The translations under genes and the position numbers were made by a program. A stretch of 64,000 bases of DNA from assembly GCA_947174635.1 (NCBI GenBank), contig CAMWJS010000002.1:62001-126000 (forward strand), written 5' to 3'. How positions within the stretch are numbered: the stretch's first letter is position 1; each line of letters begins with the position of its first letter. Under the pieces are notes generated by a model. It did not search any database and had not been told where the DNA came from. It saw nothing but the letters and a program-made list of their open reading frames with translations. Below, piece after piece: positions 19,845-60,339 of the stretch. The DNA comes from an uncultured Muribaculaceae bacterium (lineage in GTDB: Bacteria > Bacteroidota > Bacteroidia > Bacteroidales > Muribaculaceae).

Positions 19845-19914
19845 AGTTATGATTTATGATGCTATAAAAAATTGTACAATAATACTTGTCGGATTGTGAT
19901 TTAAGCAGAGTTGA

Positions 19915-19948
19915 CCGGGGCGGGGGCGTCTCGCCCCCGTGGTATTAT
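19915..19948. repeat. Half copy of the GGGGCGGGGGCGTCTCGCCCCCG element
   Basis: 34/34 identical to 34047-34080. Confidence 0.95.
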
Positions 19949-20029: not shown

Positions 20030-20170
20030 GGGGGTGTTGCAGAACTCCAAAACGTAGGGACGCACGGCTCGTGCGTCCGCAAAACAGTGCTGATTATTAA
20101 CCTTTTACCGGACGCACGAGCCGTGCGTCCCTACATCGCAAACCGAAATTTTGGAGTTCTGCAACACCCT
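20030..20170. repeat. Nested inverted repeat element: outer GGGTGTTGCAGAACTCCAAAA/TTTTGGAGTTCTGCAACACCC, inner GTAGGGACGCACGGCTCGTGCGTCCG/CGGACGCACGAGCCGTGCGTCCCTAC
   Basis: Arms read directly in sequence; each inner arm is itself a palindrome GGACGCACG-NNN-CGTGCGTCC. Confidence 0.95.
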
Positions 20171-32615: not shown

Positions 32616-32698
32616 TTTCCGCGGTTAAAAAGCGCGGCTACTACCAAATAGCCCATGATTGGCAGAAGTGTAGTAGCGGCGGTTTTTAACCGCCGAAA
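32616..32698. repeat. Intergenic palindromic element, CCGCGGTTTTTAACCGCGG family (divergent copy)
   Basis: TTTCCGCGGTTAAAAAGCGCGGCTACTAC / GTAGTAGCGGCGGTTTTTAACCGCCGAAA; flanked at 32600 by GTTGTTGCAAAAC. Confidence 0.9.
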
Positions 32699-32818: not shown

Positions 32819-33883
32819 CTATCCCACCACCCACTTTGAGCCGGGGATGAGGGAGATAAGGCGGGTTATTATGGCGCAGGCAAGGAATGTGGCGGTGCCA
32901 ACGGCGAGGATTGCCGGAAGCGTAGACAGGTGCGGGGCGATAAGCTGCTGCATGAAGCCGAGCACGAAGATGTGCATCAGGTAGATGCCGTAGCTGATTT
33001 TCGATACGCTCTGTACCGGTCCGTAGAGCCACTGCCCGGAGTAGTTGACGTGGCGCAGTATCAGGAATGTTCCGGCTGTCATCATGGCAACGTTGAACGT
33101 GCAGAAATACCATGACTGCTCTGCGTAGGCGTAGTCGGTCGATTCCATCGAGTGGGTGTAGAAAAGTCCGGCGGTGAATGCAAATCCTACCAGTATTAGC
33201 GGCACGCCTATGGCCACGCTTTTCTTCAGCGACCAGTTGACATATTTGCGTATATAGTGGGCGAGCACGACATATCCTATGTAGCCTGAAAAGTAATACA
33301 GCGCGTGGAATTTGTTCCAGAATACTTCGCCCCACACATAGCCTGTCAGCGGGCGCAGGTAGCCTGTAAAGGTCGTCAGGAACCATATCGCGAGGAATAT
33401 CTCCTCGCCGCGTCGCGACACTCGGCTCAGCCAGGGTGATATGATGGGCATTGCGAGGTATACGCCTATGAGCATGTAGATGAACCACAGGTGGCCGCTG
33501 TCGGCATTGGCGGTGTAGAGTATGTTGCTGACGCGCTCGGCGATATCTCCGTCAATCGCTCCAGTTATGACCGGCACCACGGCATAGAGCAGCGACCAGA
33601 TGACGAACGGCACGAACACGCGCGAGAACCGCCGCTTGAAGAATACCGTGGAACTCGTTGTCAGCGGCAGCAGAAGGAATGACGAAGCCATCACAAACAA
33701 CGGTACTGACTGCCGGAATGCGCCGTCGATTATCGAAACCCAGAGTCGGTCGGTGTCGTTGGCGAGTATGACACCTGTATCCGTGCAGTAGTAAAATTCG
33801 CAGGCGTGTACCAACACTACCATAAAGCAGGCGATTACACGCAGATAGTCAAGAAATACGATGCGGTTTGTCTTTTCTTTCAT
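32819..33883 (-). CDS. Acyltransferase family 3 (OafA/YrhL-like) membrane protein
   Basis: FLDYLRVIACFMVVLVHACEF...; LWFIYMLIGVYLAMPIISPWL; SYGIYLMHIFVLGF. Confidence 0.9.
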   Translation of the reverse strand: MKEKTNRIVFLDYLRVIACFMVVLVHACEFYYCTDTGVILANDTDRLWVSIIDGAFRQSVPLFVMASSFLLLPLTTSSTVFFKRRFSRVFVPFVIWSLLYAVVPVITGAIDGDIAERVSNILYTANADSGHLWFIYMLIGVYLAMPIISPWLSRVSRRGEEIFLAIWFLTTFTGYLRPLTGYVWGEVFWNKFHALYYFSGYIGYVVLAHYIRKYVNWSLKKSVAIGVPLILVGFAFTAGLFYTHSMESTDYAYAEQSWYFCTFNVAMMTAGTFLILRHVNYSGQWLYGPVQSVSKISYGIYLMHIFVLGFMQQLIAPHLSTLPAILAVGTATFLACAIITRLISLIPGSKWVVG

Positions 33884-34020: not shown

Positions 34021-34126
34021 GACGCATGTTGCGTCAGGGGCGGTAGCCGGGGCGGGGGCGTCTCGCCCCCGTGGTATTATTTAATACTATAACGGGGGCG
34101 AGACGCCCCCGCCCCGGCTACCGCCC
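34021..34126. repeat. Giant palindrome: 35-bp perfect arms (34038-34072 / 34092-34126), preceded by GACGCATGTTGCGTC
   Basis: GGGCGGTAGCCGGGGCGGGGGCGTCTCGCCCCCGT / ACGGGGGCGAGACGCCCCCGCCCCGGCTACCGCCC with palindromic centre GTATTATTTAATAC. Confidence 0.97.
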
Positions 34127-34164: not shown

Positions 34165-34212
34165 AAAAAAAATCCTGCTGCCCCGACATAATCGGGCAGC
34201 AGGATTTTTTTT
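34165..34212. terminator. Bidirectional rho-independent terminator downstream of efflux operon
   Basis: A-tract, AATCCTGCTGCCCCGA..TCGGGCAGCAGGATT, T-tract. Confidence 0.88.
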
Positions 34213-34235: not shown

Positions 34236-35621
34236 TTATCGGCCTCCGCCGAGCGACTGGTAGAGGTTGATTACTGCCTGGGCTTTGGCAAGCTCGCAGT
34301 TGAGTTGCGACATCTGAGCAGAAAGCAGGCTCGACTGAGCGGTCAGTATCTCAAGATAAGTTGCTCCCGCGGCTGCGAAAAGCTCCTTGGTGTAGTATTC
34401 CGCTTTTTGGAGATTGTCGACCTGCTCGGCGAGCAGAACGCTTTTCTCATTGTTCTTGTCGTAGGTGGTGAGAGCGTCCGACACCTCGGCAGTAGCGCTC
34501 AGCAGGGTGTACTGGAAAGTGTTCATTGCCTGCTGCTGGCTTGCCTTGGCAGCTTCGAGGCGGGCGATGTTCTGTCCGCGCGAGAAGATGGGCGCCACCA
34601 GAGTGCCGGCCAATGATGCAAACCAGTCGCCGGGGTTCTTGATGAACGAGCCGAATGAGTTTGTGAAGCCGTAGTTGGCAGTGATGGACAGACCCGGGTA
34701 GAAAGCTGCACGGGCAATGTTGGTGGTGTAGTAGGCCTGTGCGAGAGCTTCCTCTGCGGCGCGCACGTCGGGACGTGCTGCGAGTTCGCGCATCGGCACA
34801 CCGTCGCGGTAGATGGCCGGAGCCATCAGTCTTGCTTCGGGCGACACTTCCCATATCTGGGGAAGCGTGTTGAGCAGCAGCGACATGGTGTTGTTGGCTT
34901 TGTCAAGAGCGACCTCGATGTCGGTGATTGATGACAGGATGCTCAGATAGTTGGCCTGGCTCTGTACTACGGCAGCCTCGTTGGTGCGTCCGGCGAGCTT
35001 GTAGTCCTTCATTGTCTGAACGTTCTCGCCCCAGATTACGGCAGTCTCGCGCGAAAGCTGCAGCTGAGACTGGAGTATGGCGATGCTGTAGTAGCAGTTG
35101 GCTACAGCGCCTATGATCTGTGAGCGCACGGCCTGCTCATAGTCCTTGGCCTGAGCTTCTGCCGACTCGGCGAGGCGCTTGTTGTTGAGCAGTTTGCCGA
35201 ATATGTCGACTTCCCATGATGCCGACAGGGGTATGGTGTAGTTCCATCCGGTCAGTTTGCCGTTGCTCACCGATGACGCGCCTCCTGTGGGGGTGAGTGT
35301 CAGCGAGGGGAAATAGCTCATGCGGGCGCCGCGCAGATTGGCGTGGGCGATGTCGACATTGAGTTTGGCATTGGCAAGGTCCACGTTATTGGCGAGCGCG
35401 CGGTTGATGAGGTCGGCAAGCATCGGGTCGGTGAACACATCCTGCCATTGGAGATTGCCGAATGCGCGGGCATCGCCTTCCTGAGCCTTGGCCTCGACAT
35501 ATTCCTGCTGGAGCGGGGTGTCGGTCGGCATCTCGAATTTTTTATACAGTCCGCAGCCGGAGAGCATTGCCACTGCGAGAGTGGCAACGACCGGACGTGC
35601 TATGGTTTGTATTTTAATCAT
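34236..35621 (-). CDS. RND efflux outer membrane lipoprotein (OprM/NodT type)
   Basis: Lipobox MLSGC; AFGNLQWQDVFTDPMLADLINRAL; SWEVDIFGKL; start at 35621 preferred. Confidence 0.92.
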   Translation of the reverse strand: MIKIQTIARPVVATLAVAMLSGCGLYKKFEMPTDTPLQQEYVEAKAQEGDARAFGNLQWQDVFTDPMLADLINRALANNVDLANAKLNVDIAHANLRGARMSYFPSLTLTPTGGASSVSNGKLTGWNYTIPLSASWEVDIFGKLLNNKRLAESAEAQAKDYEQAVRSQIIGAVANCYYSIAILQSQLQLSRETAVIWGENVQTMKDYKLAGRTNEAAVVQSQANYLSILSSITDIEVALDKANNTMSLLLNTLPQIWEVSPEARLMAPAIYRDGVPMRELAARPDVRAAEEALAQAYYTTNIARAAFYPGLSITANYGFTNSFGSFIKNPGDWFASLAGTLVAPIFSRGQNIARLEAAKASQQQAMNTFQYTLLSATAEVSDALTTYDKNNEKSVLLAEQVDNLQKAEYYTKELFAAAGATYLEILTAQSSLLSAQMSQLNCELAKAQAVINLYQSLGGGR

Positions 35622-35674
35622 AACTGATGTTTTTTTGACTTTAATACTGTATTGTCGCAAGAGTGAATACCGTA

Positions 35675-58575: not shown

Positions 58576-58658
58576 TTTCCGCGGTTGAAAACCGCGGCTA
58601 CTAAGCGCAGCATCCTGACAATCAGTAGCGTAGTAGCCGCGGTTTTTAACCGCGGAAA
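58576..58658. repeat. Intergenic palindromic element, CCGCGGTTTTTAACCGCGG family
   Basis: TTTCCGCGGTTGAAAACCGCGGCTACTA / TAGTAGCCGCGGTTTTTAACCGCGGAAA; flanked by GAGTTTTGCAACACCCTC (58668-58685). Confidence 0.95.
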
Positions 58659-58708
58659 GATAAGAATGAGTTTTGCAACACCCTCGTCCCTGATTTAAAA
58701 TATTTCAA

Positions 58709-60262: not shown

Positions 60263-60339
60263 ATCCAATTCAGTAGCCGCGGTTTTTAACCGCGGAAACG
60301 CCAATTCCGCGGTTAAAAACCGCGGCTACTGAATTGGAT
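60263..60339. repeat. Perfect 35-bp inverted repeat with CCGCGGTTTTTAACCGCGG cores
   Basis: ATCCAATTCAGTAGCCGCGGTTTTTAACCGCGGAA (60263-60297) / exact reverse complement (60305-60339), 7-nt spacer. Confidence 0.97.

Follow-up and report, generated by a model that had tools for sequence, protein, structure and literature searches.

The 89-nt palindrome at 34038-34126 of a Muribaculaceae genome as a probable REPIN of a RAYT-linked repeat family

The palindrome and its repeat family

What kind of element is the long GC-rich palindrome that lies between genes at 34038-34126 of the window, the 64,000-nt stretch analysed here (C2:62001-126000 of a host assembly of 2.9 Mb in 123 contigs, 99% complete)? 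Read directly, it starts at 34038 with the arm GGGCGGTAGCCGGGGCGGGGGCGTCTCGCCCCCGT and ends at 34126 with the exact reverse complement, 19 nt lying between; counted over 44-nt arms around 1 nt, the complementarity is 93%. As single-stranded DNA this sequence has a folding energy of -59.5 kcal/mol, where shuffled sequences give -21.9 +/- 2.4 kcal/mol (z = -15.7), a stability far above chance. The giant palindrome with 35-bp perfect arms described in an earlier note is therefore real. It is in all probability a REPIN, a small non-autonomous element that is likely mobilised in trans by a transposase, RAYT-A, encoded elsewhere in the genome. The features of the locus, and of one related site in the window, are as follows.

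34038-34126, unstranded: REPIN of family A, two inverted REP-A units whose GTAG feet point outward, with perfect arms of 35 bp and a centre of 19 nt
34043-34046, plus strand: GTAG foot of the left REP-A unit, mirrored by CTAC at 34118-34121
34046-34071, plus strand: REP-A core GCCGGGGCGGGGGCGTCTCGCCCCCG of the left unit (C2:96046-96071)
34093-34118, minus strand: REP-A core of the right unit (C2:96093-96118)
34165-34212, unstranded: intrinsic terminator that follows the outer-membrane efflux gene and is distinct from the REPIN
19914-19939, plus strand: single REP-A upstream of ispF, absent in seven genus relatives

Full and half copies, counted over the whole genome, come to 27-29 copies of REP-A with seven inverted pairs, the figure varying with the mismatch limit. 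The 26-nt core occurs 27 times with up to three mismatches, 15 times forward and 12 times reverse, and the reversed control pattern does not occur in the genome; the 19-nt core occurs 29 times. The seven pairs (units within 160 bp) take up 14 of the 29 copies and are all of one polarity, GTAG outward, and the remaining 15 copies are single under that criterion. The spacing within pairs is variable (47-134), unlike that of families B and C described below. The half copy at 19915-19948, which the earlier note had matched to the palindrome, is an exact match over 34 of 34 positions. Its supposed fixed orientation does not survive the genome-wide count, since forward and reverse copies are balanced (15 plus against 12-14 minus); it is a lone REP that has lost its GTAG foot, with GTTGACCGGGG in place of GGTAGCCGGGG.

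The REP-A unit can be written GGGC-GGTAG-CCGGGG-CGGGGGCG-TCT-CGCCCCCG-TGG. The consensus of the 27 copies is GGGcGgtagCcGGGGCGGGGGCGTCTCGCCCCCGtggt, and GTAG stands at the foot position in 18 of them. It precedes the perfect 8-bp stem by 10 nt and so does not sit at the stem foot itself; CC/GG pairing beside GTAG is possible, yet it is not part of the predicted optimum.

Fold-back synthesis would be expected to produce perfect arms, and contig ends in this assembly often coincide with REPs. An origin of the palindrome in local replication fold-back or misassembly is nonetheless barely conceivable, for the same sequence recurs throughout the genome with constant unit boundaries and is found in two other species whose assemblies are independent.

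A local role calls for closer scrutiny. The hairpin is very stable and intergenic, effects of E. coli REPs on mRNA have been reported in the literature, and the palindrome might serve the neighbouring genes as an attenuator, a second terminator, an mRNA-stabilising hairpin or a protein site. A structural or regulatory element of this kind is, however, very unlikely. The flanks of 34038-34126 contain no T run, and the upstream gene has a terminator of its own at 34165-34212, past which the palindrome lies at a distance of 38 bp. REP-A is present in many copies, at unrelated places and in both orientations, and the matching site in relatives showed no copy of it. On these grounds termination or attenuation was rejected as the main role, in agreement with the earlier note, which had thought termination improbable. 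That note had also taken single-copy conservation at this exact position as the mark of a local function; what was found is a repeat of 27-29 copies and, in the readable relatives, a site lacking the element. The copy at 34038-34126 presumably has no host function, and it may have been co-opted for a local effect.

Next to the REPIN, at 34021-34035, lies the small palindrome GACGCA-TGT-TGCGTC, which the earlier note had called odd. It belongs to a class of palindromes with 34 members in the window, compared with 9-14 in mononucleotide shuffles; with so many of the same format in the window, it is ordinary.

Transposases and the other repeat families

A Y1_Tnp search of the host genome returned five genes, two of which lie between REP repeats.

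C32:24242-24862 (L033:1743-2363): RAYT-A, 206 aa, with REP-A REPINs on both sides within 60 nt
L034:576-1238: RAYT-B, 220 aa, 40% identical to RAYT-A, with family B on both sides

The family-A REPINs that flank RAYT-A occupy about L033:1566-1743 and 2410-2533. RAYT-A scores 45.9 bits against Pfam Y1_Tnp (cut-off 23); its closest NCBIfam model is REP_Tyr_transpos (REP-associated tyrosine transposase), at 67.9 bits and under the cut-off of 80. A profile of five RAYTs matches IS200-type structures and 4ER8 (E = 7.5e-4). The best PDB match of the AlphaFold model of RAYT-A (pLDDT 88.6) is likewise 4ER8, the E. coli RAYT with a REP hairpin (E = 5.6e-6), with a TM score of 0.46-0.56 and an rmsd of 10 A over the whole alignment. 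The model thus places the two proteins in the same family, with a superposition that is not close.

Residues N122, H123, H125, W162 and Y183 of RAYT-A are invariant among 30 homologues. They include the HUH motif, NHVH at 122-125, and the Y motif, YIENNP with Y183. The WQ motif is absent from RAYT-A and its two closest orthologues, which have W162-M163; it is present in RAYT-B, and Q is the majority residue among the 30 homologues. By the motifs given in PMC6006769 (NHVH, YIENNP), RAYT-A is nearest to RAYT subclass 2.4, WM replacing WQ. In the surroundings of 63 RAYT homologues taken from a wide range of phyla, GTAG ranks 16th of 256 tetramers by a k-mer method that counts any tetramer inside repeats and so says little about GTAG enrichment.

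Three further Y1-type genes (C4:52148-52585, C59:11456-11707 and C1:134739-134936) encode long RAYT-like proteins in frames of 280-341 aa; those on C59 and C1 have no GTAG hairpin close by. A separate IS200-type TnpA is encoded at C46:5604-5939.

In three species the gene that the family-A repeats enclose is of the Y1 HUH type and not one for a DDE transposase, and this bears on a further alternative, the classical MITE. Such an element would be an internally deleted IS of the type that transposes as double-stranded DNA, bounded by terminal inverted repeats and flanked by target-site duplications; dispersal, nearly perfect inverted repeats and recent gain would all fit it. It is nevertheless highly improbable, since at the one site read no direct repeat adjoins 34038 or 34126, the units occur single as well as paired, and they carry a GTAG or GTGG foot. 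The suggestion in the earlier note of a mobile element with a Y1/HUH transposase as its likely agent gains support, transposition itself being a matter of inference.

The REPIN reading of 34038-34126 is carried by the copy number, the pairing, the GTAG foot and the REPIN-flanked RAYT and, across the genus, by a matching distribution, a different REP beside a diverged RAYT, and empty sites. Points against it include the 10 nt between GTAG and stem, the variable pair spacing, the W-M dipeptide, the sharing of some copies between species and the incompleteness of five of the genomes compared. The TnpA_REP protein of E. coli is able to bind and cleave single-stranded REPs with a GTAG foot (reviewed in PMC6006769 and PMC3733652), and the unit that moves is considered to be the REPIN, single REPs being remnants (PMC3116915). 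RAYT-A, a TnpA_REP of the Y1/HUH single-strand transposase type, would likely mobilise family-A REPINs in trans. By analogy with the E. coli enzyme and IS200/IS605, it would bind the REP hairpin when the strand is single, use the GTAG tetranucleotide as a guide and nick with its catalytic tyrosine, and the REPIN copy would be joined elsewhere with no target duplication. Both the catalysis and these steps are assigned to RAYT-A by that analogy.

The same window holds members of two other families.

32619-32695, unstranded: REP-B pair (GTAGCCGCGGTTTTTAACCGCGG), GTAG feet inward
58579-58655, unstranded: REP-B pair, GTAG feet inward
60263-60339, unstranded: REP-B pair with 35-bp perfect arms, GTAG outward, the sole B pair of that polarity
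20054-20134, unstranded: REPIN of family C (GTAGGGACGCACGGCTCGTGCGTCC), inverted pair with GTAG outward, sharing its spacer with the single REP-A

The pair at 60263-60339 is a second palindrome in the window with 35-bp perfect arms, from a REP family different from that of 34038-34126. Family B (GTAGCCGCGGTTTTTAACCGCGG) has 78-80 copies in the host genome and family C (GTAGGGACGCACGGCTCGTGCGTCC) 156-159, mostly exact; in both, GTAG stands directly at the stem foot. GTAG faces inward in 18 of 19 B pairs, mostly at a spacing of 54; of the 31 C pairs that the 100 listed exact copies form, 30 have it outward, mostly at a spacing of 56. Pair polarity is thus opposite, inward at spacing 54 in B and outward in A and C.

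Relation to known REP systems

REPIN-RAYT systems are already known as a kind, and REP-A is a new family of that kind in a Muribaculaceae species. The nearest counterparts are the GI-GIII REPINs of Pseudomonas fluorescens SBW25 (PMC3116915) and the E. coli REPtron, with which the host shares dispersed intergenic inverted REP doublets with a GTAG foot, several families per genome, a single-copy RAYT flanked by its own family, and lone REPs as remnants. The REP sequences and the host phylum differ from those systems, as does the variable pair spacing of family A. Excision intermediates have been reported for the SBW25 REPINs.

Resemblance to RAYT subclass 2.4 (group 4 of Bertels), which occurs in Cyanobacteria, Bacteroidetes and other phyla (PMC6006769), extends to NHVH, YIxNNP and long REPs with a GT[AG]G foot close to the gene, and the 206 aa of RAYT-A may be compared with a median of 194 for the subclass. 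RAYT-A departs from it in having M after W162, where group 4 mostly has W-Q, in the 10 nt between the GTAG of REP-A and the perfect stem, and in that no REP insertion was seen inside the RAYT-A gene. With the GTAG REP superfamily (PMC3733652), REP-A shares a terminal GTAG tag, a palindromic unit, occurrence as singles and inverted dimers, and the link to a tyrosine transposase. In that 2013 survey the GTAG repeats belong to Proteobacteria, Cyanobacteria, Chloroflexi and PVC, and Bacteroidetes appear with CGTC repeats alone; by 2018, subclass 2.4 with GT[AG]G REPs had already been placed in Bacteroidetes (PMC6006769). The literature search found nothing relevant on RAYTs in Bacteroidales or on palindromic repeats of Muribaculaceae.

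The TnpA proteins of IS200/IS605 elements (IS608, ISDra2) have in common with RAYT-A the Y1/HUH fold and, as expected features, hairpin recognition and the absence of a target duplication. Unlike them, the RAYT is single-copy and has no IS200-type ends, and what would move is the REPIN. A single known mechanism would explain all three families of conspicuous GC-rich palindromes in the window, and well-resolved REPIN-RAYT pairs are extended to gut Muribaculaceae.

Repeats and transposases across the genus

Eight draft genomes, one per species, were compared (n = 8; the host is G000); the relatives are recorded as Muribaculaceae, one of them as Barnesiella sp. RAYT-A has orthologues in G001 (80% identity), G005 (79%) and G007 (54%), and none was found in G002, G003, G004 or G006; completeness is only 69-88% for G002, G003, G004, G005 and G006. 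The REP-A 19-mer occurs 29 times in G000, 28 times in G001, 47 times in G005, once in G002 and not at all in the others. REP-A is therefore abundant only in the three genomes that have RAYT-A at 79% identity or more, with 0-1 copies in the other five (Fisher p = 0.018, n = 8). The RAYTs of G001 and G005 have family-A REPINs alongside and the same neighbouring genes as in G000, and the RAYT-A gene has thus stayed in place. These REPINs were recognised by direct reading; perfect-stem detection found no hairpin beside either gene.

The more distant RAYT of G007 is flanked by a different repeat, CGTGGTGGGGCCGTCCYCGGCCGCAC, with GTGG at the stem foot; G007 contains 91 copies of this hairpin, and the seven other genomes contain no copy. 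Such a change of REP sequence between RAYT orthologues within one genus is the most interesting part of the comparison, and is in line with the reported co-evolution of RAYT and REP. For the study of RAYT-REP recognition the genus offers natural matched pairs: three species have REP-A and RAYT-A, and in one both the RAYT and the hairpin have changed.

The rule that a family goes with its own RAYT holds for B and C as well, that of B being present in the host and that of C found only in a sister species. Family B has 78 copies in G000, which has RAYT-B, two in G002 and none in the others. Family C has 173 copies in G005, where a third RAYT (RAYT-C, L063:1195-1791) has C pairs on both sides. In G001 it has 20 copies, two of them exact, and RAYT-C was not found there; nor was it found in G000, despite 156 family-C copies. 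RAYT-C of G000 may lie in an assembly gap or have been lost recently. Family-C copies stand no more than 5 nt from the ends of contigs C14, C17, C19, C24, C37, C38, C42, C44, C47 and C66, so the assembly is fragmented at REP copies and RAYT-C is perhaps hidden there. More generally, since REPINs coincide with contig ends, adjoining genes, RAYTs included, can drop out of draft genomes. It is tempting to go further and suppose that the REP-recognition code of the RAYT has been rewritten within the genus, where RAYTs of 54% identity go with hairpins that are not related to each other (the GTAG-footed REP-A of three species and the 91-copy GTGG repeat of a fourth), and that a non-cognate RAYT may mobilise family C in the host, whose copies are mostly exact although no RAYT-C was found there; this combined proposal is at present doubtful.

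The sites themselves are compatible with gain in the host lineage. Beside the outer-membrane efflux gene (34236-35660 in the window) no REP-A is present in G003-G007, nor in the stretches readable before the contig end in G001 (about 220 nt) and G002 (about 70 nt). The recent gain proposed in the earlier note is borne out to the extent that the element is missing from the matching site in readable relatives, and the near-perfect arms of 34038-34126 fit it. An exact alignment of the insertion point is not possible at the level of single bases, because the neighbouring genes differ: in G005 and G006 mfd lies directly beside the efflux outer-membrane gene, the acyltransferase gene being missing there, and the neighbours differ again in G003, G004 and G007. 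In the window an acyltransferase gene (Acyl_transf_3, 32819-33883) lies between mfd and the efflux operon. Several relatives have a T-flanked hairpin of different sequence after the efflux gene and no REPIN, so the terminator is distinct from the REPIN.

A second and cleaner empty site is found at ispF. The spacer between ispF and the next gene measures 418 nt in G000, where it contains the single REP-A and the C REPIN, compared with about 6-50 nt, free of repeats, in seven of seven relatives; on the simple reading, these repeats were gained in the G000 lineage. Not all REP-A copies are recent, since some are common to several species: for instance, the flanks of the pair at C44:10123 and of the copy at C29:23996 match in G001 and/or G005.

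Two further repeats were observed. The sequence GGTGTTGCAGAACTC forms an outer inverted repeat (20033-20047 and 20154-20168) around the family-C REPIN of the window. It also encloses a C REPIN beside RAYT-C in G005 (L063:1921-2061), and a one-mismatch copy at 58668-58682 adjoins a REP-B pair. With four matches in the window against 0.09 expected, it looks like another dispersed repeat. On the 3' side of the efflux gene in G007 (L071), where the window has the REPIN, there is an inverted pair of GCGGGGGTCTCCTGACCCGCGC and its complement, which is possibly another REP family.
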